A stretch of 63,736 nt of DNA from NCBI GenBank assembly GCA_029261215.1, contig JAJDBT010000011.1, positions 1 through 63,736 of the forward strand. Reading direction: 5' to 3'. The position numbers and the translations under genes are program-made. The DNA comes from Nitrospirota bacterium. Its GTDB lineage: Bacteria; Nitrospirota; Nitrospiria; SBBL01; JAADHI01. The notes below the pieces were generated by a model. That model did no database searches. It was not told the origin of the DNA and worked only from the letters and a program-made list of their open reading frames with translations. Of the stretch, positions 30,604-63,657 are shown one piece after another (within the stretch, counting starts at the first letter, position 1; each line of letters opens with the position of its first letter).

Positions 30604-31422
30604 TTAAACCGGCCGCGCCTTTTGTCTTTTTCCAGAAAAAAGGACAGAAAATAAAAAAACCGTCGCAGCAAGCAGGACAATGGTCGCCCCTGAAGGAATA
30701 TCCAGCCAGTACGAAAGAAAAACCCCCGCCCAGGAAGAACCCACACCAATCAGCGCGGAATAAATAATCATCGTACGCATATTTGTGGCCCACTGCTGGG
30801 CTGCCGCCGCTGGAATCACCAGCAGAGCAAAAACAAGCATCGCACCGACCGCTTTCAAGGCAATCACGACGGCCAAAGAAATGAGATTCAAGAGGAGAAA
30901 GGAGAGCCTTTTTGCCGGAATGCCGCTGGCTTCCGCCATTTCCTGATCAAATGAAATAAAATGAAATTCTTTAAAAAAGAGCACAAGAACGATAAGAATT
31001 CCGATAGAGAGTGCGGCAATCACCTTGAGATCCAGGGACGTGACCGACAAAATGCTGCCAAAGAGATAGCCATAGACCTCCGGCCGATATCCCTTCATCA
31101 AGCCAATGAATAAAATCGCAAGCGCCATCGTAAAGGTATAAAAAACACCGATGGGCACATCGGGTTTCATCTTGCCTTTTTCCTGGACAAAAGTCGTCAC
31201 CCAAACCGTTGAAAGTCCAAAGAGGACGGCCATCAGAAATGGCGAAACGCCAATCAGAAAAGCCAGGGTCACACCCGCAAAAGCCGCGTGTGCAGTGCCG
31301 GCACCAATAAAAGTCACCCCCTTCAGCACGGTAAAAATCCCAATGAGGGCGCAGACCAGGCCGATCAGCAAAGATGCCGCAAGTGCCCGCTGGATAAAAC
31401 CGTATGAAAGCAGCTCAAGCAT
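30604..31422 (-). CDS. znuB: Zinc/manganese ABC transporter permease (ZnuB-like)
   Basis: 272 residues with seven to eight membrane helices. ABC-3 family permease, with IGAGTAHAAFAGVTLAFLIG and a coupling region typical of ZnuB/MntB. It starts inside the end of the ATPase gene (8-base overlap), making a three-gene import operon. The His-rich binding protein in the operon favours zinc, but manganese cannot be excluded. Confidence 0.9.
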   Translation of the reverse strand: MLELLSYGFIQRALAASLLIGLVCALIGIFTVLKGVTFIGAGTAHAAFAGVTLAFLIGVSPFLMAVLFGLSTVWVTTFVQEKGKMKPDVPIGVFYTFTMALAILFIGLMKGYRPEVYGYLFGSILSVTSLDLKVIAALSIGILIVLVLFFKEFHFISFDQEMAEASGIPAKRLSFLLLNLISLAVVIALKAVGAMLVFALLVIPAAAAQQWATNMRTMIIYSALIGVGSSWAGVFLSYWLDIPSGATIVLLAATVFLFSVLFSGKRQKARPV

Positions 31423-32209
31423 GATTGTGGGTATCGCGCACGATGATATAGGGCTTTTGATCCCGTTTTGCGATGATCACCTCATCCCCGTAAACAGGTT
31501 CCAAAACCGCCTTTGTGAGAACCTCCTCAGGCGGGCCTTTTGCGTGCAACCGGGTTTTCAGAACGACCAAGGTTTCGACAATGCCACTGATTAAATTAAT
31601 ATCGTGTGTCACAAACACAATCGTCAAGTGGAATTGCTGATGTAACTTACAGATCAAGTCCCTCAATCGCCGTTGTGTCGCAGCATCAATTCCCGTTGTG
31701 GGTTCATCCAGAAGTAGAATATCCGGCCGCTGAGACAAAGCGCGGGCAATCAACACCCTCTGTTGTTCCCCCCCAGAGAGCTGTCCAAAGGCCTGATCTT
31801 TTAAGTCCGCCATTCCAACGGCTTCGAGGGATTCCATGACGATTTCGTGATCTTGTTTTTGGGGCCGCTTGAAGAGGCCCATTGCACCGTAACGGCCCAT
31901 CATCGCGGCCTCCCAAACCGTAATAGGATAGTTGGGATCGGTTCGTTCTTTTTGCGGGAGATAGCCAATCCGTGCGCGGTGGTGACATCTGAGTTCTTCA
32001 CAGGCGCAATCAAAAATTTGCAGGGAGCCGGACGTCGGATGAATCAATCCCAGCAAACCCTTTAAAAGGGTCGTCTTCCCCGAACCATTCGGACCAATAA
32101 CGCCTACAAATTCTCCTTCAAAAATATCAAGCGTGATGTCTTTTAAAGCCTCATGCCCATTGTAAGAAAAAGTCGCATTAGAAAAGCGAATAATCGGATG
32201 CGTCGTCAT
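31415..32209 (-). CDS. znuC: Zinc ABC transporter ATP-binding protein (ZnuC-like)
   Basis: 264 residues. ABC ATPase with Walker A GPNGSGKTTL, the signature LSGGEQQRVLIARAL, Walker B ILLLDEPTTGID and the H-loop FVTHDI. Its start overlaps the end of the binding-protein gene by four bases (ATGA). It powers the ZnuB-like permease for zinc import across the inner membrane. Confidence 0.92.
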   Translation of the reverse strand: MTTHPIIRFSNATFSYNGHEALKDITLDIFEGEFVGVIGPNGSGKTTLLKGLLGLIHPTSGSLQIFDCACEELRCHHRARIGYLPQKERTDPNYPITVWEAAMMGRYGAMGLFKRPQKQDHEIVMESLEAVGMADLKDQAFGQLSGGEQQRVLIARALSQRPDILLLDEPTTGIDAATQRRLRDLICKLHQQFHLTIVFVTHDINLISGIVETLVVLKTRLHAKGPPEEVLTKAVLEPVYGDEVIIAKRDQKPYIIVRDTHNHA

Positions 32210-33135
32210 TTTGATCTCTTTAAAGCAGAAACCAGCGTCTCGACATTATAACGAATGAGATCAAGATAGTGTTCTGTCCCGGGCAATGCCCCGGGCAGTG
32301 GAGAGAGCGGCACAATCATCACCCCTGTTTCTTCCGATAGAATTTTTGGGATTTTGGGATTTAGCTGAGGTTCTGAGACAATCACTTTAATATCTTCTTT
32401 TTGGATCAAATGAATCAATGTCCCCATTTTTTTTGCGGAAGGCTCGCTCCCGACCTGCGTCAAAATATTGGCTTTGATTTCAAAACCAAAACGTTTTGCA
32501 AAGTAAGGCCATGCAGGATGATGGGTCATTATTTTTTTATCAGGGAGTTGTGAGACCTTCAACAAAAGCGCTTTTTCGAGGTGATCCAATTTTTCAAGGT
32601 AATTTGAGGTATTTTTCCGGTAATCCCCTTCGTGAGCCGGATCAGCGGCAATCAGCGCTGTGGCAATATGAGCCACCATGATTTTCACATTTTGCGGATC
32701 AAGCCAAATATGCGGATTTCCCTCTGCATGATGGTCCGATTTTTCTCCGTCGTGATGGTCAGCCTCTTCAATCAAGGGAACATTTTTAGAGGTAACAATC
32801 ACTGCAAGTCCGGGGTGATCGGCATTTTTAATCAGCGCTTCCACCCAGGTTTCCAGACCCAGACCAATCTTAAAAAGAAGCTTGGATTTTTTGATTAAGA
32901 TCATATCGCTCGGTTTTGGGGTGTAGGTATGCTCACTCTCCAAACCCGATATTAAAGACGAAACTTGAACATGTGGCGCCCCCACCACTTCGACAAAGTC
33001 CTGCAAAACAGGAAGCGTCGTCACCACTCGAAGGGTTTCCGCACCGTACCCTGTGGCCTTTAAAGAGATTCCGGAGAAAACCGAAAAGATTAAGAGGAAC
33101 AAAGCCTTACGAAGATAAGAAGAAGATTTTTGCAT
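32206..33135 (-). CDS. znuA: Zinc-binding periplasmic protein (ZnuA-like)
   Basis: 309 residues with a Sec signal peptide (about 1-30). Cluster A-I (ZnuA/TroA) fold: VVTTLPVLQDFVEVVGAPH, GLESEHTYTPKPSD, a His/Asp-rich flexible loop (DHHDGEKSDHHAEG, about 126-139) and PHIWLDPQN, with MTHHPAWPYFAKRF and a late Glu/Asp ligand region. The His loop is typical of zinc rather than manganese binding proteins. First gene of the operon. I found no convincing Zur box upstream. Confidence 0.92.
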   Translation of the reverse strand: MQKSSSYLRKALFLLIFSVFSGISLKATGYGAETLRVVTTLPVLQDFVEVVGAPHVQVSSLISGLESEHTYTPKPSDMILIKKSKLLFKIGLGLETWVEALIKNADHPGLAVIVTSKNVPLIEEADHHDGEKSDHHAEGNPHIWLDPQNVKIMVAHIATALIAADPAHEGDYRKNTSNYLEKLDHLEKALLLKVSQLPDKKIMTHHPAWPYFAKRFGFEIKANILTQVGSEPSAKKMGTLIHLIQKEDIKVIVSEPQLNPKIPKILSEETGVMIVPLSPLPGALPGTEHYLDLIRYNVETLVSALKRSK

Positions 33136-35922: not shown

Positions 35923-36177
35923 TTACCAGACCGTCACTCGGTCACATTCTCTAATCAATCGCACGATGCCCGGATAATTAATTAAAAAGTAGGGACTTTC
36001 ACCTCCGCGCACGCCAAGATCTTCTTCACAAACATAGGTTTCTTCAGGGAAATGGCCCGCACTCAAAACACCATCCTGCATTAAAAGCACAACAACCCGC
36101 CGATCCGACATTTCATCAGCAATCACCGCGTACGCCAGGGGATCATTTATTTTACGGACAATATGCAGGGTTTTCAT
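35923..36177 (-). CDS. DsrH/TusB-like small protein
   Basis: 84 residues. The size, the start MKTLHIVRKINDPLAYAVI and the middle VVLLMQDGVL fit the DsrH/TusB group of the DsrE superfamily, which in DsrEFH and TusBCD complexes helps pass sulfur. The residue pattern is divergent: the only cysteines are in YVCEEDLG and RECDR. Its start overlaps the DsrF-like gene by four bases. Assigned from order and size as much as from motif. Confidence 0.65.
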   Translation of the reverse strand: MKTLHIVRKINDPLAYAVIADEMSDRRVVVLLMQDGVLSAGHFPEETYVCEEDLGVRGGESPYFLINYPGIVRLIRECDRVTVW

Positions 36178-36533
36178 CGAAAAGGAAGGACCACGTCGGC
36201 CTCTCGAATCAAAAGCATGACATCGGGAGAAGGCAGTTCTCGTGTCATTTCCGGCGGGGCTTCGATCTTTCGCGCAAGCATCGCCTCCGCATCGGCATAT
36301 AATTTCAAATCAATCTGTTCAAACACCCCCATCACATCATAGATGGACGGGCGGCCAATGTTCGCCCCTCGCAATTTGTTCAAATGAAAGACCCCGTCAC
36401 CGACCAATACAATACACACCTCGTTTTCGGCAAGCGTCAACCCAATACTCATACGAAAGGCCTCACTTGACCGCACGGTATTGAAGGGGCCGTCTTCAAC
36501 CAGCACCACTATCTTTTTTTTCTTTGAAATCAT
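36174..36533 (-). CDS. DsrF/TusC-like DsrE-family protein
   Basis: 119 residues. The opening KKIVVLVEDGPFNTVRSSEA, then MSIGLTLAENEVCIVLVGDGVF, is the Rossmann-like DsrE/DsrF pattern. The third gene product of a complex of this type usually stacks with DsrE and DsrH. It lies 11 bases after the DsrE-like gene and overlaps the DsrH-like one. No dsrAB or dsrC genes are in the window, so a general sulfur-relay role is likely rather than dissimilatory sulfur metabolism. Confidence 0.7.
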   Translation of the reverse strand: MISKKKKIVVLVEDGPFNTVRSSEAFRMSIGLTLAENEVCIVLVGDGVFHLNKLRGANIGRPSIYDVMGVFEQIDLKLYADAEAMLARKIEAPPEMTRELPSPDVMLLIREADVVLPFR

Positions 36534-36544
36534 CCGAAAACCCT

Positions 36545-36880
36545 TTAAGCTCCAAAGGACAAAAAACGATCTGAGCCAGCCAGTATCCTGGCCAATTCAT
36601 GTTGAGACGCCCAATCGACTCCGGCGATACAGCTTTCCTCGGAGACTCCGCGCTTTTCGAGGGATTGGCTGCAAACCGATACGGTCATCTGTCCGGCCAA
36701 GAGGTTCTTTAACTTTTCAGAGATGCCCAGCTTGTGCTTTTTGACGATGTGATAAACACCATCATCCATCAAAAACAAGGCGACTTGATCCCCTGCGGAT
36801 AAAAAGGCCGCCGCCAGGGTGCAGACCGTATGTCCATTTTGATGCTCCGGACTGGTCGTCATCAAGATCCCGATTTTCAA
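36545..36880 (-). CDS. DsrE/TusD-like DsrE-family protein
   Basis: 111 residues from a TTG at 36880 that has AAAGG six bases upstream; a longer frame from a TTG at 36940 lacks such a site and adds residues not typical of the family. The start LKIGILMTTSPEHQNGHTVC and FLMDDGVYHIV are DsrE-family hallmarks, and VSVCSQSLEKRGV holds the cysteine at the place of the active cysteine in DsrE/TusD. First of the three-gene set. A role in sulfur transfer is inferred from the family. Confidence 0.72.
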   Translation of the reverse strand: MKIGILMTTSPEHQNGHTVCTLAAAFLSAGDQVALFLMDDGVYHIVKKHKLGISEKLKNLLAGQMTVSVCSQSLEKRGVSEESCIAGVDWASQHELARILAGSDRFLSFGA

Positions 36881-37074
36881 AGAATGGCCTTTTTGTGGTA
36901 GGATTTTCTCTGATGTACCATAGCCCTCCGGGCTTGTCAATCGGAAGAATTAATCAAAACGAGCAGAGACAGGATTGACGTAATCTTGACTTTAAAATAT
37001 AGTTTCTTCATATCCAAGCTCAAAACCTTTCCTCTCAAGAGGCATGGAAGGTCTCATTTAACCGGCACAAAGAC

Positions 37075-40000
37075 ATGCCAGAAAAAGCTTTAATGATAAA
37101 ACACGCACGCAGGGCATTTTTTTTTATACCGCTTTTTTTTCTTTTGATCACACAACTGTCACAGGCTGAGACACTCATTCACCACGATCTGAAAGTCGTT
37201 CTCAGTCCAGGCTCACATCTCATTCAAGTTGTAGATCGTCTGTCTCTTTCTCCCTCGTTTCAAGCGGATCAACAAGGAAAATTCTACTTTAGCCTGAACG
37301 AAAGCCTTTTTCCAATCGCCTTGACACCCGGAGTCATGATTGAGCGAGAATTGGCATTAGACGACAAAACACCCAAGATCTCCGGAATGACGGACCTCGG
37401 AATCCAACCGGAAGCCAACACCGTCCCCCTCACACACTACAGCATGACCCTTCCAATCGGCTTAAGAGAAGTTGTTATCCGCTACGAAGGCCTCATCAAC
37501 AATCCCCTCGTCCTGAAAGACAATGCTCTCCCTACCGTCGAAGCAGATACTTCAGGGATGATTTCAGAAGAAGGGATTTTTTTGTCCGAACCCAGCGCTT
37601 GGTACCCAGACTTTAATCAACAATTGATCAGCTTTAACCTCGATATCACCTTGCCCCAAGACTGGAACGCAGTCAGCCAGGGGAAGCGGACACAGCATTT
37701 TGTTCAGGGCGACACACAACACATTCGATGGGAATCCCCCGAACCTCAGGAGCACATTTTTCTCGTCGGGGGAAAATGGACAGAATACAAACGAAAGACA
37801 GGCAGGGTCCTCATTCTGGCTTTACTTAAAACACCTGACTCCGAACTCGCCAAGCGCTATCTCAAAGCCGCGGAGCAATATCTCACCATGTACCAGGAAC
37901 TGCTCGGCCCTTATCCCTACGCAAAGTTTGCCCTGGTCGAAAATTTTTGGGAAGCCCAATATGGCCTGCCTTCCTTTACCCTCATGGGACCTAAAGCCCT
38001 GAGATCCCCTGCCACAATCCATGCCATATTCCCCTACGAACTTTTACGCAACTGGTGGGGCAATGGGGTCTATGTGAATCAAAATCAGGGAAATTGGAGT
38101 GAAGGACTCATTGCCTATCTTTCTGATTATCTCAAACGGGAACAAAATGACACCGCACAAGCACTGCGCCTGACACTTTTACAACAATATGCACATACGG
38201 TCACCAGACAAAATGAGGTGCCCTTATCGCTGTTTCAGGGCTGGAGCGATCCCGCATCGCAAGCCATCGGTTATGGAAAAGGCCTCTTTCTCTTTCATAT
38301 GTTTCGTCAATCTTTAGGAGACAAACCCTTTATCAACGCGCTTCGAACTTTTTTTCACGAAAACCGCTTTAAACACACCTCATTTGAAACACTGGCTCAA
38401 GCCTTTGGGCGCTCAACACAACAGGACCTCTCAGAAGAATTCATGCAGTGGGTCAGAAGAAAGGGCGCACCCGTGCTCCGGGCAAAACACGTGCTGTCTG
38501 AAAAAACAGACACAGGCTATCGCTTCTCGGCCTTGATTGAGCAACAACAACCGGGACCAGCCTATCCTTTAAATATCCCAATCGTCATCACACTCCAAGG
38601 GGAAAAAGCGCCTTTTCAAACCACGGTGGACATGAAGAATAAAACACTGGAGATCGCGATAGATTTGCCGACACGGCCCGTCCGCTTTCAAATCGACCCG
38701 GAGTACAACCTCTTTCGCGCGCTCCACCCGGCCGAAATGCCGCCGTCCATTGAAGAGGCCTTAAATGCCGAATCCACACTAATATTACTGCCCTCTACAG
38801 CTTCCATTCCCTTGAGAAGCGCCTATCAAAAACTCGCGCGCTCAATGAAACAGGAGCGGCCCGATCATGTTTCAATCGGCTGGGACAATGAATACACCCG
38901 CTTGCCCGATGACCAGTCCGTCTGGCTGCTTGGATGGGAAAACCGGTTTCAGAGGACGATTCTAAAAGAGCTGACCACCTACGATGTCTCCATGAACAGC
39001 GCCATGACCCGGATTGGAGATATTCAGATTCCACGCCGTAATCACAGCATCGTGCTTTCAACAAGGCACCCTAAAAGTACAAAATATGCGTTAAGCTGGT
39101 TTGCCACAGACCATGCGGCAGCCATCCCTGTTTTTGGAAAAAAGTTGTCCCAATATGGACCTTATGGTTATCTCGCTTTCAAGGGAAATGCCCTCAAAGA
39201 TGTTGAAAAAGGGCGATGGCCTCCCGTGGGCTCCCCCATGTCCATTCGCATTAAACAAGACGATGGACGATGGATCAAAGAAGTGCCAACGACGCTGGCA
39301 AAACGCGACGCTCTGACCTCCATTTCACCGCTTTTTTCAGAGGAACAAATGTGGGGAGACATCACCTTTCTTTCAAGCGATCAATTAAAAGGACGCGGCT
39401 TTGGAACGCCGGAGCTCGACCGAACCGCGGAATATATCGCCGCAGCCTTTCGTCAGGCAGGTTTAAGCCCCGCAGACGATGCCGGAAGAAGTTTTCTTCA
39501 GCAATGGACGGGAGAACACGAAGGCATCGGGAGCGGTGTCGCTTTAAAAAATGTCGTTGCCATGCTGCCGGGGACAGCATCCGGGCTCAAACATGAATAC
39601 ATCGTCATCGGAGCCCACTATGACCACCTGGGTTTTGGCTGGCCGAGAGTACACGAAGGCGAGCATTCCACAATCCATCCCGGTGCAAATGCCAACGCCA
39701 GCGGCGTCGCCTTGATGCTGGAGCTGGCCCGGGTCCTGAAAAAAGACAAACCCCTGCAACGCTCCATCCTTTTTGCCGCTTTTACAGCCAATGAAGTCGG
39801 TCTTCGCGGATCACAGCATCTCGTGTCATCTCAAGCCGCCCTGCCTGCGGGGCTCATCACCAGCATGATCAACCTCGACACCGTCGGCCGTCTGCAGGAG
39901 AACCGTTTGTTTGTCCTCGGCACAGAATCATCCAGAGAATGGCCGCCCATTTTACGGCGTATCGGCTTTGAAACCGGGATAGAAATCGCATCCTTTCCCG

Positions 40001-40263
40001 AAACCCTGGCATCAAGCGATCACATAAGCTTTATTCAGGAAGGCATTCCCGCCATCCGATTTTTTACCGGAATCACTCCGGAAACCGACCGTCCCACAGA
40101 CACCATCGAAAAGATTGACCTCCCAGGGATGGTGGCCATTGGTCGGGTCGTCAAAGAAGTCATTGAAGACCTCGCCAATCGTCCCCTGCCGCTTACAGGC
40201 CGACCTGACCAAAAAATGGCGCCCAGCCTCATTTGGGAAAGACGTGCATTTTTAACAGATTAG
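37075..40263 (+). CDS. Secreted M1-like/M28-like tandem protein, both metallopeptidase sites degenerate
   Basis: 1062 residues with a signal peptide (cleavage near SQA-ET, about 31). Residues about 35-500 resemble an M1 (gluzincin) aminopeptidase: ENFWEAQYGLPSFTLMG and GNWSEGLIAYLSD are clear. But the HExxH zinc motif reads YELLR (321-325), so both His ligands are lost; the third ligand E343 remains. Residues about 770-1045 are an M28 peptidase: H848 and D850 in HYDHLG, E907, D935 in NLDTVG and H983 in SDHISF are kept. The bridging Asp of GAxDNASG is Ala873, and the catalytic-base Glu of the EE pair is Asn906. Both domains are therefore probably inactive or altered. An alternative start is the ATG at 37093. 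It stands alone between the divergent DsrE-like genes and the DUF4331 block. Confidence 0.85.
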   Translation: MPEKALMIKHARRAFFFIPLFFLLITQLSQAETLIHHDLKVVLSPGSHLIQVVDRLSLSPSFQADQQGKFYFSLNESLFPIALTPGVMIERELALDDKTPKISGMTDLGIQPEANTVPLTHYSMTLPIGLREVVIRYEGLINNPLVLKDNALPTVEADTSGMISEEGIFLSEPSAWYPDFNQQLISFNLDITLPQDWNAVSQGKRTQHFVQGDTQHIRWESPEPQEHIFLVGGKWTEYKRKTGRVLILALLKTPDSELAKRYLKAAEQYLTMYQELLGPYPYAKFALVENFWEAQYGLPSFTLMGPKALRSPATIHAIFPYELLRNWWGNGVYVNQNQGNWSEGLIAYLSDYLKREQNDTAQALRLTLLQQYAHTVTRQNEVPLSLFQGWSDPASQAIGYGKGLFLFHMFRQSLGDKPFINALRTFFHENRFKHTSFETLAQAFGRSTQQDLSEEFMQWVRRKGAPVLRAKHVLSEKTDTGYRFSALIEQQQPGPAYPLNIPIVITLQGEKAPFQTTVDMKNKTLEIAIDLPTRPVRFQIDPEYNLFRALHPAEMPPSIEEALNAESTLILLPSTASIPLRSAYQKLARSMKQERPDHVSIGWDNEYTRLPDDQSVWLLGWENRFQRTILKELTTYDVSMNSAMTRIGDIQIPRRNHSIVLSTRHPKSTKYALSWFATDHAAAIPVFGKKLSQYGPYGYLAFKGNALKDVEKGRWPPVGSPMSIRIKQDDGRWIKEVPTTLAKRDALTSISPLFSEEQMWGDITFLSSDQLKGRGFGTPELDRTAEYIAAAFRQAGLSPADDAGRSFLQQWTGEHEGIGSGVALKNVVAMLPGTASGLKHEYIVIGAHYDHLGFGWPRVHEGEHSTIHPGANANASGVALMLELARVLKKDKPLQRSILFAAFTANEVGLRGSQHLVSSQAALPAGLITSMINLDTVGRLQENRLFVLGTESSREWPPILRRIGFETGIEIASFPETLASSDHISFIQEGIPAIRFFTGITPETDRPTDTIEKIDLPGMVAIGRVVKEVIEDLANRPLPLTGRPDQKMAPSLIWERRAFLTD

Positions 40264-40746: not shown

Positions 40747-42240
40747 ATGAAATTCAAAAACATCAAACAGAAACTGGGTATCGCAGTGCTGGGACTGGCA
40801 CTCACCAGCCCGTCCTTTGCGGCCAGTCATCGGGAAGCGCCGCTTATTTCACTCGATCCGGCGGCGGACATCACGGATTTTTACATGTTCAGAAGCCCGA
40901 ACAATCCCCAAAACGCCGTGATTGCAATGAACGTGATTCCGGGGCAGGAACCAGGCAGCGGCCCCAATTATTTCAACTTCGACGACGATGTGCTTTATGA
41001 AATCTACATCGACAACAACAAAAACAACATCGCGCGGGACATCACCTATCAGTTCCGTTTCAAGACAGAGATCCGCTCACCGGGGGATGTGTTTCCACTC
41101 TCCTATGCGGCCCTTCCTCCCATCACAACACTCGACGGCCCTGGCTCGGAGGGATTGCTTCTGCGCCAAACCTACACCGTCACAGAGCAGCGATTTGGCC
41201 AAAAGCCAAAAGACTTGGGGACGGGCATAATGGTTGCGGTGCCGTCCAATGTCGGCCCGCGCACCATCCCGAACTACGAAGCCCTTGCAACGCAGGGGAT
41301 TTACCCCTTGAGCAACGGTGGTCGGGTTTATGCTGGACAACGGGATGAAACCTTTTACATCGATCTGGGCGGTGTTTTCGATACTCTCAATCTGCGTAAT
41401 TCCCCCATTCTTTCGGATGCGGATGATGCCGACGACGGGAAAAATGTGGCGGATGCGCCAGACACCTTTAGCGGCTTCAACGTCAATACCATCGCGATTG
41501 AAATCCCCATTTCAGAGCTCATGGGCAAAGACGGCAACACAGTAATCGGGGCGTACGCCGCGACCAGTCGCCCGCGTGTCACCATCTTAAAACGGGACAA
41601 CAAACGTGAACACTCAAGTTTTGTCGCACAGGTCGCCCGCATGGGCAACCCTCTGGTCAACGAATTAATCATCCCGACCAGCCGAAAAGATGAGTGGAAC
41701 GCCACTTATGCGGAATTCGAAAGCAAATTTGTCGAACATTTCTGCAATCCTTCTCTGGCTGTCGCACTGAACGTCGTCTTTGGAACGACTTTTCCGACAA
41801 GCGACCGGGCTGACCTGGCAAACCTTCTATTGCGTTACGGAGACAGCGCCATCAAGGACATTTGTGTACCGGGGGCATTAAAAGGTAAACCTTTGGCCGA
41901 CTTTCTGCGGGTGGATCTCAACACGCCTCCCACACCGATTCTCAATCAAAAACGCCTCGGTGTCTTTGCCCGCGATGCGAACGGCAATCCGACCCCCGAC
42001 CCCAACGGCTGGCCCAATGGCCGTAGACCCAACGATGACGTGACGGACATCGCGCTTCGGGCCGTGGCGGGGGCTTTAATTGATCCGGCCACACCCGCAC
42101 TCGGTGACGGGGTGAATTTCAACATTGGCGCTCCCGGTACGGGTGTAACGGCAAACGGGATTGCAAGCGATTTCCCCTTCATGCCGACACCGCACGATGG
42201 CCGGGATCGTCGTCATATTGATCCTCTGGAATTGCCATAA
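40747..42240 (+). CDS. DUF4331-domain secreted protein
   Basis: 497 residues. The signal peptide ends in SFA-AS (about 26). The mature start SHREAPLISLDPAADITDFY is the hallmark of DUF4331, which continues with FRSPNNPQNAVIAMNVIPGQ and IYIDNNKNN. The biochemical function of the family is unknown. The mature protein has only two cysteines and is rich in Asp and Asn. AAAGGAG precedes the ATG. It sits between a small lipoprotein gene and a TPR/NicO pair; DUF4331, TPR protein and Ni/Co-type transporter neighbours recur in other genomes to my knowledge, but I could not check this here. Confidence 0.88.
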   Translation: MKFKNIKQKLGIAVLGLALTSPSFAASHREAPLISLDPAADITDFYMFRSPNNPQNAVIAMNVIPGQEPGSGPNYFNFDDDVLYEIYIDNNKNNIARDITYQFRFKTEIRSPGDVFPLSYAALPPITTLDGPGSEGLLLRQTYTVTEQRFGQKPKDLGTGIMVAVPSNVGPRTIPNYEALATQGIYPLSNGGRVYAGQRDETFYIDLGGVFDTLNLRNSPILSDADDADDGKNVADAPDTFSGFNVNTIAIEIPISELMGKDGNTVIGAYAATSRPRVTILKRDNKREHSSFVAQVARMGNPLVNELIIPTSRKDEWNATYAEFESKFVEHFCNPSLAVALNVVFGTTFPTSDRADLANLLLRYGDSAIKDICVPGALKGKPLADFLRVDLNTPPTPILNQKRLGVFARDANGNPTPDPNGWPNGRRPNDDVTDIALRAVAGALIDPATPALGDGVNFNIGAPGTGVTANGIASDFPFMPTPHDGRDRRHIDPLELP

Positions 42241-42250
42241 CAACACACAT

Positions 42251-42275
42251 TCGGGGACGCGTGCCGCGTCCCCGA
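42251..42275 (+). repeat. Perfect 11-pair hairpin between the DUF4331 and TPR genes
   Basis: TCGGGGACGCG, loop TGC, CGCGTCCCCGA starts 10 bases after the DUF4331 stop codon. No T-run follows; the ribosome-binding site of the next gene (CAGGAG) is nine bases on. It is more likely an mRNA stabiliser or processing site that makes the upstream message more abundant than the downstream one. Confidence 0.75.
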
Positions 42276-42294
42276 ATTGATCAGGAGAAACGAC

Positions 42295-43572
42295 ATGGGT
42301 ATTCAAAAAAACATCCCGTCACAAAAACAGGGTCAAAAAAGCTCCAGACCCTTGGGGGCCGTTTTATGCGTGACGCTCCTGCTTTTCACCTCAACATCTT
42401 CTTGGGCAGAGCAGGGCCATCAAAGTAAAAAAGCATCACTCACTCCTAACATCCATTCTGTATTCGCAGAAATTCAAGGTGGGCAGGAAACCGGCGATGG
42501 CCGCTATTTTAATCGCGCCGATCAATGGTTGAATCAAATTCCCCCCAAAGGGAAAAATCAGGGCAAGATTTTAGGACTTCGAGCCTGGATTGCCGTCTTT
42601 CAGCATGACTTTGAGCGGGCAGCCGAACTGGCCGAAAAAGCACTCCTCCTGCAACCGGGAGTCGCTTTTCACTACGGGGTGCTTAGCGATGCCGCCCTGG
42701 AGTTGGGGGACTATGAAAAAGCACTTCGGAGCACACAAAAGATGCTGGATCTCAAACCAGATCAGGCCGCCTTCAGCCGCGCTGCCCACTTGCGGGAATT
42801 GTTCGGAGACCCCACAGGAGCAATTGAATTCTGGGAAAAGGCCATCGAAGCAGGTGCACCCACACCCGTATCCACGGCCTGGTGCCAGGTGGAACTGGGT
42901 GATGTTTATTTTAATCAAGGCCACATCAAAACCGCCCAACAACACTACCAACGCGCACTTGAAACCCGTCCTGGCGACCACCGCGCTTTAGCGCGTTTGG
43001 CCCGCATCCATCACCTTAAAAACAATCATGCCGGCGCCGAGCAGCTCTATCAATCTGCCATCGCCACACTGCCACTGCCGCAGTACCTCGCGGACTTGGG
43101 TGATTTTTATTTAGAAACGGGACGAATCAAAAAGGCGAACGCTCAATTTGAGCAAGTCGCCCTTTCAGCCCAACTCGACACACTCACAGCAAAACAGCCA
43201 AACCGGGATTTAGCCCTTTTTTACGCCAACCATGACCTGAATATCGAGAAAGCCGTACAGATTGCCGAATCAGCCATCAAGAGCCGTAAGGACATCTTCA
43301 CTTACGACGTGCTGGCCTGGAGCTATTTCAAGGCAAAACGATATACAGAAGCACACGCCGCCATCACACATGCCCTGAAATTAGGCACAAAAAACGCGAC
43401 CCTGCACTATCACGCTGGCCGAATTTCACAAGCCTTGGGAAATTCGGCCGCGGCAAAAAAGCATTTTGAAAGCGCTCTCGCTCAAAACCCCTACTTTGAT
43501 TTGAAAAAGGCCAAGATCGCAAAACAACACCTTGCGCACTTGGCGCTCACACAAAAAGGAGCACCCTCATGA
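42295..43572 (+). CDS. Secreted TPR-repeat protein of the DUF4331 block
   Basis: 425 residues from the ATG at 42295, which has CAGGAG seven bases upstream. A signal peptide or membrane anchor lies at about 17-39 (LGAVLCVTLLLFTSTSSWAE). The remainder is tetratricopeptide-like repeats from about 65 to 415 (for example GDVYFNQGHIKTAQQHYQRA and YHAGRISQALGNSAAAKKHF). No enzyme motif. It probably holds partner proteins in the periplasm. It overlaps the NicO-type gene by four bases (ATGA), so TPR protein and transporter are made together. Confidence 0.85.
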   Translation: MGIQKNIPSQKQGQKSSRPLGAVLCVTLLLFTSTSSWAEQGHQSKKASLTPNIHSVFAEIQGGQETGDGRYFNRADQWLNQIPPKGKNQGKILGLRAWIAVFQHDFERAAELAEKALLLQPGVAFHYGVLSDAALELGDYEKALRSTQKMLDLKPDQAAFSRAAHLRELFGDPTGAIEFWEKAIEAGAPTPVSTAWCQVELGDVYFNQGHIKTAQQHYQRALETRPGDHRALARLARIHHLKNNHAGAEQLYQSAIATLPLPQYLADLGDFYLETGRIKKANAQFEQVALSAQLDTLTAKQPNRDLALFYANHDLNIEKAVQIAESAIKSRKDIFTYDVLAWSYFKAKRYTEAHAAITHALKLGTKNATLHYHAGRISQALGNSAAAKKHFESALAQNPYFDLKKAKIAKQHLAHLALTQKGAPS

Positions 43573-45005
43573 AAAAAACCCAAACCATCTTATATGTGAT
43601 TGGGCTGCTTTTGATTTTTTTAAACAGTGCCCAGGCCCATCCCATGGGCAATTTTTCAATCAACCATTATTCGGCATTGCAGGTGGATGAAGACAGGATT
43701 CAAGTCCGCTACATTCTCGATTTTGCCGAAATTCCCGCTTTTCAGGAGCGTCAGATCATGGATCTTGATGCAGACGGTTTAATCAGCGAAGCCGAAAAAA
43801 CCACCTATCTCACACACAAAATCCCTCAGCTTGCAGAAGGACTCGTGCTCAACATTTCGGGGGAACGTCAACAATTGAAGATGCACACGCAGGGCCTCGA
43901 TTTTTCAGCGGGGGCAGGCGGCCTGCCCACGATGCGGCTCGATATTGTGTACGAAAATCAACAACCTTCTGCTCTGATGCAGATCCAGAACAGCACAATC
44001 AAACTGGACTATGCGGATCAAAACTATGCCCGGCGGGCAGGCTGGAAAGAGCTCGCGGCCAAGGCAGGCCCTGGCCTCGCTTTGCTTGGATCGACTATAC
44101 CTCTCACGGGTAGTGAACTGCGTTCCTATCCCGACATCGAAAACACCTCCCCGCCGCAAAGGGTTCAAACTCAATTTTCAATTCAACGCGCTGGCTCGTC
44201 AACGTCCTCCCAAAAAGCGATAAAACCAATAGTGAACACATCTGACTCCAAACGGGATGACGCCTTCACGCGGCTTGTCCGGGAAACGCTCCCGGTGGGT
44301 CAAAACTTGCTTTGGGTCTTGCTGGCCGCATTGGCGCTCGGTGCGACCCACGCGCTCTCTCCGGGGCACGGAAAAACCCTCGTGGCCGCATACCTCGTCG
44401 GCAGTCAAGGAAGCTTCTGGCATGCCTTGTTGTTGGGTCTCACTGTCACTTTTTCGCATACCATCGGGGTTTTTCTTCTGGGCTTCATGACGCTCTATCT
44501 TTCAGATTTTATCGTCCCGGAACAGCTCTACCCCTGGCTCAGCCGCTTTTCAGGACTCACGATTTTGATCATCGGACTCACGATTTTCAGACAACGCTGG
44601 CGCTCACTTAAACATCCCACAACAGAGAAGAGGCATCCTCACGGTCATGAAGATCATATGCACAAGCACCATCACGCGCATCCTCATCATCACAGTAAAG
44701 AAGGCTCACTCAAACACATCCTCGGACTCGGCGTCAGCGGCGGCATGATCCCCTGCCCTTCTGCCCTGATCGTTTTACTCAGCGCGGTGGCCTTTCACCA
44801 GATCACTTTTGGTCTTTTATTAATTTTCGCTTTTAGCCTCGGGCTCGCGGCGACACTTGTGACCGTCGGGCTCTTCGTCGTGTATCTCGGAAACATCTTC
44901 AAGCACTCTGAAGGCCTTAACCCCATCCTGCGGTTTTTACCCGCTGTTTCCGCCGCAGGCATGGCGATGCTGGGCGGATTCATCACCTTTGGCAGTGGAG
45001 GATAA
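43569..45005 (+). CDS. NicO-family nickel/cobalt transporter with periplasmic N-domain
   Basis: 478 residues. Signal peptide (about 1-23, ending AQA-HP), then a periplasmic domain of about 200 residues starting HPMGNFSINHYSAL and including an EF-hand-like loop DLDADGLISEAEK. Six membrane helices follow (about 235-478) with the NicO/RcnA motif ATHALSPGHGKTLVAAYLVG and SGGMIPCPSALIVLL. The loop between helices three and four is very His-rich (HPHGHEDHMHKHHHAHPHHH), as in RcnA and other Ni/Co exporters. Transport direction and metal are not certain. It is coupled to the TPR gene upstream. Confidence 0.88.
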   Translation: MKKTQTILYVIGLLLIFLNSAQAHPMGNFSINHYSALQVDEDRIQVRYILDFAEIPAFQERQIMDLDADGLISEAEKTTYLTHKIPQLAEGLVLNISGERQQLKMHTQGLDFSAGAGGLPTMRLDIVYENQQPSALMQIQNSTIKLDYADQNYARRAGWKELAAKAGPGLALLGSTIPLTGSELRSYPDIENTSPPQRVQTQFSIQRAGSSTSSQKAIKPIVNTSDSKRDDAFTRLVRETLPVGQNLLWVLLAALALGATHALSPGHGKTLVAAYLVGSQGSFWHALLLGLTVTFSHTIGVFLLGFMTLYLSDFIVPEQLYPWLSRFSGLTILIIGLTIFRQRWRSLKHPTTEKRHPHGHEDHMHKHHHAHPHHHSKEGSLKHILGLGVSGGMIPCPSALIVLLSAVAFHQITFGLLLIFAFSLGLAATLVTVGLFVVYLGNIFKHSEGLNPILRFLPAVSAAGMAMLGGFITFGSGG

Positions 45006-60474: not shown

Positions 60475-62256
<1,782 letters not shown>

Positions 62257-62267
<11 letters not shown>

Positions 62268-62577
62268 AGACGATAAGCGGGAAATCAAAGGAAAGGGCAT
62301 TTCTGAAAAGCTGATTCAGCAAATCGGACAAAAAGAAGCACGTAAGTTAAAAGCCCGTCGGGAAGAAGAACGAAACGCCTGGTTTTGGCTGGGGATGTTT
62401 GGTCTCGTCGGCTGGGCGGTGGCCATTCCGACCGTGCTCGGGGTGGCACTCGGAGTTTGGATCGATACAAAATGGCCAAGTCAATATGCATGGACGCTGA
62501 TGTTTCTTTTGATCGGTGTCGTGCTCGGTTGTTTTAATGCCTGGTATTGGATCAAACGAGAAAGCCGAGATGATTGA
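62257..62577 (+). CDS. atpQ: N-ATPase AtpQ (AtpI-like) membrane protein
   Basis: 106 residues from the ATG at 62257. A charged N-terminus (ISEKLIQQIGQKEARKLKAR) is followed by two membrane helices (about 43-65 and 75-97), the AtpI/AtpZ-like hairpin fold with GVWIDTKWPSQYAWTLM. In N-ATPase operons AtpQ and AtpR are the two extra small membrane proteins, thought to help assemble the c-ring or transport Mg2+/Na+. It overlaps atpC; its stop overlaps the ATG of a possible small ORF at 62570. Confidence 0.85.
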
Positions 62578-62674
62578 AATAGTCTTGGTTTCAGGGACAA
62601 CTTACTTGATTGTCCCGCTCACGCGCTATCTCAGGTTATCTCCTTGGCCGGAAATTAAAGAGGAATCGTTGTGA
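62570..62674 (+). CDS. Candidate 34-residue membrane protein between atpQ and atpR
   Basis: An ATG at 62570 overlaps the atpQ stop (ATGATTGA), and the frame stops at 62672-62674, overlapping the GTG start of atpR at 62671. The product (MIEIVLVSGTTYLIVPLTRY, then a Trp/Pro/Glu tail) is about 20 hydrophobic residues with an acidic-basic tail, like a one-helix membrane protein. It fills exactly the only gap in an otherwise overlapping operon. No strong ribosome-binding site of its own; translation would depend on coupling. Chance cannot be excluded at this length. Confidence 0.45.
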   Translation: MIEIVLVSGTTYLIVPLTRYLRLSPWPEIKEESL

Positions 62675-62976
62675 TCACTCAGGGTTTTTATCTCTTCATG
62701 GCATTTGCGATGGGCATCGGATTGGGACTGGCTTTCTTTTTCAGCTTGTGGTGGACGGTGAAAAAGCTCCCTGATTCCCGTCATCCTGCGCTGCTCACCT
62801 TGAGCAGTTTGTTCGTGCGGCTTTCCGTGTGTGTCTTTGGCTTTTATTGGGTGATGGATGGACAGTGGGAACGACTGCTGCTTGCGCTCTTGGGGTTTTT
62901 ATTCATGCGACGATTTTTTCTCCGCAAATGGGGAGTAGAGGCTTCGCAGCTTGTTTCAAAATACGATGGGGTTTAA
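62671..62976 (+). CDS. atpR: N-ATPase AtpR membrane protein
   Basis: 101 residues from a GTG at 62671 preceded by AGAGGA. Three membrane helices: YLFMAFAMGIGLGLAFFFSL, LLTLSSLFVRLSVCVFGFYW and LLLALLGFLFMRRFFLRKW. The arginines in helices two and three (FVRLS, MRRFFLRK) are the conserved feature of AtpR, suggested to face acidic residues of the c-subunit. Its gene order between Q and B supports the name. Confidence 0.85.
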   Translation: MITQGFYLFMAFAMGIGLGLAFFFSLWWTVKKLPDSRHPALLTLSSLFVRLSVCVFGFYWVMDGQWERLLLALLGFLFMRRFFLRKWGVEASQLVSKYDGV

Positions 62977-62981
62977 AACAA

Positions 62982-63600
62982 ATGGATATCACGCACATCA
63001 CGCCTGACCAGGTGGTTTATTGGCAATGGGGTTTTTTTTCGCTCAATGCCACCCTGCTTTATACTTGGGGAGTGATACTGTTGCTGACAATCGGCTCTTG
63101 GCTGGTGACACGAAAACTCACGTCCGAAATACATCTTTCCCGCTGGCAAAACCTACTGGAAATCGTGGTCGCGGGCATCCGGGATCAGATCCGTGAAGTG
63201 AGCGGGCAAAAACCGGAGCCCTATCTCCCCTTTATCGGAACGATTTTTATTTTTATTGCCGTTTCAAATCTGCTGGCGATTGTTCCCGGATATATTCCAC
63301 CGACCGGATCGCTTTCGACCACAACCGCACTCGCTCTCTCCGTCTTTGTGGCCGTACCGTTTTTTGGCATTGCGCGACAGGGGGTTTTAACTTATTTGAA
63401 GAATTATGTTCAGCCCAGTCTCTTCATGCTGCCTTTCAATATCATGGGAGAATTGTCCCGAACCCTGGCTTTGGCCGTCCGTCTTTTTGGCAATGTCATG
63501 AGCGGCATCAAAATTGGCGCCATCCTGCTGGCCATTGCACCACTCTTTTTCCCGATCATCATGCAGATCATGGGCCTGCTGACCGGGATGATTCAAGAGG
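62982..63600 (+). pseudogene. atpB: N-ATPase subunit a (atpB), 3' end replaced by an IS
   Basis: About 206 residues of the proton/sodium channel subunit before the IS. Four to five membrane helices are present, with the half-channel motif ELSRTLALAVRLFGNVMSG, whose Arg (in AVRLFGN) is essential for ion translocation. Starting from MGLLTGMIQ the family normally continues into a last helix of the type AYIFAVLAMVYIA. Here the sequence switches at 63601 to IS DNA and the frame runs on for 13 foreign residues to a stop at 63636-63638. The last helix, about 20 residues, is lost, so the subunit is probably non-functional. The downstream genes E, F, A, G are not visible. Confidence 0.88.
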
Positions 63601-63626
63601 TGGACCCCAAGCCTGACACAGTGAAT
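63601..63626 (-). repeat. Right terminal inverted repeat of the IS3-family element
   Basis: TGGACCCCAAGCCTGACACA is an imperfect counterpart of the left repeat at 230-254 (same first ten bases, then a mismatched block, then GA-ACAGTG). This fits left and right ends of one element type. Confidence 0.75.
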
Positions 63627-63657
63627 CGCTTTTTATAAGTGAAATCCTGGGGCATTG

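Follow-up and report, generated by a model that had tools for sequence, protein, structure and literature searches.

A tandem M1-M28 protein of Nitrospirota as a probable pseudopeptidase kept for its M28-derived half

The locus and its tandem gene

The window, meaning the whole stretch of 63,736 nucleotides of Nitrospirota DNA analyzed here, carries at positions 37075 to 40263 of the forward strand one open frame for a 1062-residue, predicted exported protein that joins an M1-like and an M28-like domain. We refer to this gene as copy A. Its length and coordinates, as well as the union of the two domains in one protein, had been given in a preliminary description of this DNA, and both statements hold: Pfam recognizes Peptidase_M1 at residues 314 to 459 (E = 1.1e-7; 32.2 bits versus a cut-off of 27.7) and Peptidase_M28 at residues 826 to 1029 (E = 3.5e-38; 131.7 bits versus a cut-off of 21.3). 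All features of the protein described below lie on the forward strand. Residues 1 to 31 (37075 to 37167) read by eye as a putative signal peptide, with a basic stretch, a hydrophobic core, and an A-x-A-like end but no lipobox cysteine; an ATG at 37093 may be an alternative start. The M1-like catalytic region comprises residues 231 to 475 (37765 to 38499), bounds that we chose for rate tests, and is assigned from Pfam and from fold matches to M1 aminopeptidases. The M28-derived half covers residues 750 to 1037 (39322 to 40185), as assigned from Pfam and a profile match to solved M28 enzymes. Toward the C terminus, a conserved tail with the pattern P-x-L-I/M-W-E/Q-R-R (residues 1050 to 1057; 40222 to 40245) replaces the PDZ domain of most family members.

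An AlphaFold2 model of the protein, built with 48 sequences, has a mean pLDDT of 85.5 and a pTM of 0.80. Its best fold matches in the PDB are M1 aminopeptidases, and only M1 proteins are among the best 50 matches listed, so that the M28 fold is assigned from sequence profiles and from the confidence of the model. The family profile finds solved M28 enzymes and, in addition, nicalin and transferrin receptor 1, both M28-like.

For comparison, the window's family was sampled with eight Nitrospirota genomes, labeled G000 (the window genome) to G007. Beside copy A lies a divergent trio of genes (35926 to 36940, reverse strand), two of them DsrE/DsrF-like and the third small, with Pfam DsrE found in two of the three. 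The same trio is present in G002, G003, and G005, and two of its genes are present in G001. It also stands beside the intact tandem gene of G014, a genome from another family, which suggests that copy A probably holds the older locus. A conserved operon partner was considered and rejected, as only the divergent DsrE-type trio is conserved, and this within the order. A contig scan reaching up to 4 kb on each side of the tandem gene at 79 loci found no DsrE, DUF4331, or NicO homologue, and we therefore claim no functional link with such neighbors. Genes for DUF4331, TPR, and NicO-type transporter proteins lie downstream of copy A (40747 to 45005, forward strand); they are also found in G002 and are not found in G001, G003, or G004. 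About 4 kb upstream of copy A is a ZnuABC-like metal-uptake gene set (30604 to 33135, reverse strand), whose binding protein has a His-rich loop when read by eye. The end of the window, right after a PEP-synthase-like gene, is occupied by genes that by eye resemble an N-type ATP synthase operon (60475 to 63638, forward strand).

Residues lost and kept at the two metallopeptidase sites

The HExxH motif of the M1 half, present in 82 of 82 reference members, is replaced by YELLR (residues 321 to 325; 38035 to 38049), just as first described. An active M1 aminopeptidase requires this motif plus a glutamate as third zinc ligand, and of these the window protein retains only the latter, E343 (38101 to 38103; family alignment). 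The catalytic tyrosine and the GxMEN-like motif, which are required as well, are retained as Y400 (38272 to 38274) and as E289 and N290. Y400, the transition-state residue, aligns with the tyrosine of the Y-x-K-G motif in solved M1 enzymes and is found in 82 of 82 reference members. The tyrosine of this motif has a catalytic role, and its replacement by phenylalanine in puromycin-sensitive aminopeptidase, which matches a Y400F change, lowers kcat 1000-fold (PMC10343166). Compared with peptidase family M1 (aminopeptidase N, puromycin-sensitive aminopeptidase, and ERAP1), the window protein shares the Pfam domain, the profile, the fold, and residues E343, Y400, and E289, but lacks both histidines of HExxH. 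Within its M1 catalytic region, 20 of 89 positions conserved in the family are lost.

In the M28 half, three of six catalytic residues are lost (D873, E906, and H1005). H848 and D850 (39616 to 39624) are kept and are invariant both in copy A and in the family; D935 (39877 to 39879; family alignment) is kept too. A873 (39691 to 39693) replaces the metal-bridging aspartate, a position that is Ala in three, Gly in two, and Asp in two of the seven copy A proteins; the preceding residue, 872, is Asn in all seven. N906, followed by the retained E907 (39790 to 39795 for the pair), replaces the general-base glutamate, which is Lys in the other six. D1005 (40087 to 40089) replaces the histidine ligand equivalent to His256 of Aeromonas aminopeptidase (1amp), placed here by profile alignment; all 82 reference members have His there, whereas copy A has Asp in six proteins and Gly in one. 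His256 is on the published list of 1amp metal ligands (PMC7522609). Measured against the two-metal ligand set (His, bridging Asp, Glu, Asp, His) of peptidase family M28 (1amp, 2ek8, and YwaD, 6hc6), with which it shares the Pfam domain and profile matches, the window protein retains H848, E907, and D935 but has A873 and D1005 in place of the bridging aspartate and the His256-equivalent ligand, and the general base required of an active M28 aminopeptidase is missing.

The replacements at 873 and 906 agree with the preliminary description, which had also listed H848, E907, D935, and H983 as remaining. All four are indeed at those positions, but H983 (40021 to 40023) is not a ligand, and the site therefore has one more loss, H1005, than had been claimed. 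Position 983 was rejected as a metal ligand on two grounds: His256 of 1amp aligns with position 1005, and 983, which aligns with a non-ligand histidine of 1amp, is Gln in 74 of the 82 reference members. The SDH/SDQ motif at this position is easily taken for the M28 histidine ligand. Most of the substitutions are common to independently assembled relatives and, on that comparison, are not the product of chance or a sequencing slip.

Metal could still bind the M28 half, to judge from the invariance of H848, D850, E907, and D935 in all seven copy A proteins. One alternative is that H848, E907, D935, and D1005 make up a rebuilt one-metal site with unusual chemistry, as proposed for the GPI transamidase subunit GPAA1. 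The presence of Asp at 1005 in six of the seven proteins is consistent with such a site, as is the divergent M28 site of GPAA1, which is without both standard histidine ligands and has been modeled as a single-zinc enzyme (PMC7522609). Copy A differs from GPAA1, however, in having lost the general base and mostly the bridging aspartate too: the former is replaced by Lys or Asn in seven of seven proteins and the latter by Ala or Gly in five of seven. Moreover, the base position is Asn in the window protein but Lys in the other six, hence no new conserved catalytic residue has arisen there. The one-metal hydrolase entertained in the preliminary description is thus weakened, given a base and a histidine ligand lost throughout copy A and an H983 that is no ligand, and we consider it quite unlikely.

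Duplication, M1 damage, and selection

Tandem homologues of full length are found in each of the eight sampled genomes of the window's family, in another family from the same order, and in many phyla. Tandem M1-M28-PDZ proteins from Nitrosomonas, Ca. Scalindua, Calditrichota, and Bacteroidetes MAGs have the same domain order over nearly their full length, at about 38 to 45% identity; unlike the window protein, they keep HExxH, GA(D/N)DNASG, the EE pair, and H1005 (catalytic positions, 82 of 82), and those examined keep the C-terminal PDZ domain. All 82 reference tandem members have every catalytic residue of the two halves, so the ancestor was likely an intact tandem enzyme. In another genome of the same order, the tandem gene (L036, G017:C1:1095423-1098537) is spread over several frames and represents a pseudogene or assembly errors.

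Within the window's family the gene has been duplicated, with copy A in seven genomes and copy B in four (G000:C21, G002:C10, G004:C106, and G007:C43). In the M28 tree, the M28 halves of the seven copy A proteins make up a single clade with a support of 100/100; they are 57 to 74% identical to one another, and 48 of the 62 family-conserved M28 positions are kept in every one of them. Copy B and the proteins of the other family have a PDZ domain; copy A has the short conserved tail instead. Copy B of the window genome (L134, G000:C21:26583-29054) has an intact HExxH motif and a PDZ domain and has lost about 300 residues, the M28 domain, in frame. In G001, copy B is a decayed remnant (L039, G001:C65:2478-3084) with an in-frame stop, consisting of the M28 end and PDZ only. 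G006 has a single copy, in which the base glutamate is changed to Gly and the other residues are kept; it groups with copy A in the M1 tree and is unplaced in the M28 tree. Close homologues intact at both sites, which the preliminary description would have read as a sign of simple decay in the window copy, do exist among copy B paralogues and distant members, but not in the orthologous clade.

Four genomes have a copy A with a damaged M1 half, namely G000 (YELLR), G002 (HEILR), G004 (HALLR and Y400Q), and G007 (N290H and Y400F, with HExxH kept and an accelerated M1 region); this half is intact in G001, G003, G005, and G006. A copy B with an intact M1 half is present in exactly G000, G002, G004, and G007. 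None was found in the genomes of G005, G003 (92% complete), and G006 (95% complete), where for the latter two the absence could reflect assembly gaps, and G001 has the remnant only. Outside genus g1, copy B is not marked by its DEAD-box neighbor, which therefore cannot serve as proof of empty copy B sites in G005 and G006. Sister contrasts in the M1 tree (G003/G004, G001/[G000, G002], and G005/G007) all go in the same direction, and the three alone give a sign-test value of 1/8. Across the eight genomes, M1 damage coincides with copy B presence at a one-sided Fisher value of 0.014, which ignores relatedness and includes G007 in the damaged group, a placement decided after inspection of the data because of N290H, Y400F, and the accelerated M1 region; when G007 is scored as M1 intact by its HExxH motif, the value is 0.071. 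Each genome keeps one intact M1 of the subfamily, and all seven copy A proteins keep the altered M28 half.

This distribution bears on a second alternative, that selection acts on the M1 half, that the M28 half is only a structural prop for it, and that the window copy has departed from this pattern recently. Four of the eight genomes have a copy A with an intact M1 half, which could there be the selected activity. Against this, copy A with its slowly evolving M28 half is kept in the four genomes with a damaged M1 half, and the class has many M1-only homologues that lack an M28 half, so the M1 fold needs no M28 domain. We regard a purely structural role as improbable.

Open frames are found in all copy A genes. 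Between G000 and G002, both of which have Arg325, the NG86 dN/dS is about 0.12 in the M1 catalytic region (dN, 0.239; dS, 1.92) and about 0.11 in the middle region, and the M28 half has a dN of 0.175 with saturated dS; owing to saturation, these ratios are a rough guide, and YN00 estimates were mostly lost. Relative-rate tests of the four damaged lineages against a sister gave 25:3, 35:4, 30:3, and 31:4 lineage-specific changes in the M1 catalytic region, which evolves about 8 to 10 times faster in damaged copy A. The same tests on the M28 half gave 10:6, 12:7, 9:7, and 14:6, with no significant acceleration. Similarly, the four damaged proteins have lost 17 to 25 of the 89 family-conserved M1 positions, versus 1 to 6 in the others. 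Only the M1 half shows relaxation, mainly in its catalytic region.

A third alternative is plain decay, with a redundant paralogue drifting to loss before its frame is broken. Damage at both sites, the lost positions and acceleration of the M1 region, and the presence of copy B in the same genome are consistent with decay. However, the same M28 losses are shared by seven genomes with open frames and M28 halves of 57 to 74% identity, a dN/dS of about 0.1 persists after M1 loss, and the M28 half is not accelerated. Real decay looks different, as in G001 copy B, of which a fragment is left; copy A of the window has no stops or frameshifts and no gene-wide relaxation. As expected of a conserved pseudopeptidase, catalytic residues (the base and the histidine ligand) are lost clade-wide and purifying selection follows, at a dN/dS that is rough but low. 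The preliminary description had argued against decay from the intact frame and proposed a dN/dS comparison among relatives, and both the open frames and the approximate ratio of 0.1, read with the same caution about saturation, bear it out. Decay has, in our estimate, little chance of being correct.

A predicted binding role for the M28-derived half

The reading that we favor, at a probability of roughly 0.7, is that the window protein is a neofunctionalized pseudopeptidase kept for its M28-derived half, and that it represents copy A of an exported tandem M1-M28 aminopeptidase whose gene was duplicated. Decay, a one-metal site, and a structural prop are each less consistent with the data. The core of the earlier proposal, a new noncatalytic role and not decay, is supported by M28 losses in seven orthologues, open frames, and purifying selection, but the two halves turn out to have different histories. 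As reconstructed from the sequences compared here, loss at the M28 site is old and uniform, whereas loss at the M1 site happened recently and more than once, and goes with an intact paralogue.

After duplication, the M28 half of copy A lost its general base and histidine ligand, changes common to all seven proteins, together with the bridging aspartate in five of seven; the PDZ domain went as well, and selection on the protein has been purifying ever since. Where copy A is the sole M1 copy of the subfamily, its M1 half stayed intact; where copy B supplies an intact M1, that half was damaged, in no fewer than three separate lineages. The M28-derived half is predicted to be a binding domain, for a peptide, a substrate, or a partner protein, located outside the cytoplasm. 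A plausible role would be that of a receptor or of a scaffold that binds peptides. Where copy A has an intact M1 half, the M28 half would hold or present substrate for it; in the window lineage, copy A would act without catalysis, possibly with copy B, an intact M1-PDZ protein without M28. More tentatively, copies A and B may constitute a pseudoenzyme-enzyme pair, in which the exported M28-derived binding half delivers ligands to, or regulates, an intact M1 domain, whether its own or that of copy B in trans, M1 catalysis having been left with either paralogue several times and the binding half having remained in copy A. We hold this specific pairing to be possible, though well short of probable.

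Transferrin receptor 1, nicalin, and nicastrin have an M28 fold, have lost the catalytic residues, and serve in binding or as scaffolds. The first two are matched by the family profile, and nicastrin is only a weak Pfam match of relatives of the window protein. These are eukaryotic membrane proteins of separate origin with no M1 half. Neither tandem M1-M28 proteins nor M28 pseudopeptidases from bacteria were found described in the literature searched, which consisted largely of papers available without subscription, so that this is weak evidence of novelty.

Living relatives show successive stages: an intact tandem enzyme, loss of the M28 base alone (G006), a fixed dead M28 site with a live M1 site, and both sites dead. 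The recurrent association of M1 damage with an intact paralogue offers a natural, testable case of the splitting of catalysis and binding after duplication. If the binding role is true, copy A would be a bacterial counterpart, of separate origin, to eukaryotic M28 pseudopeptidases such as the transferrin receptor.
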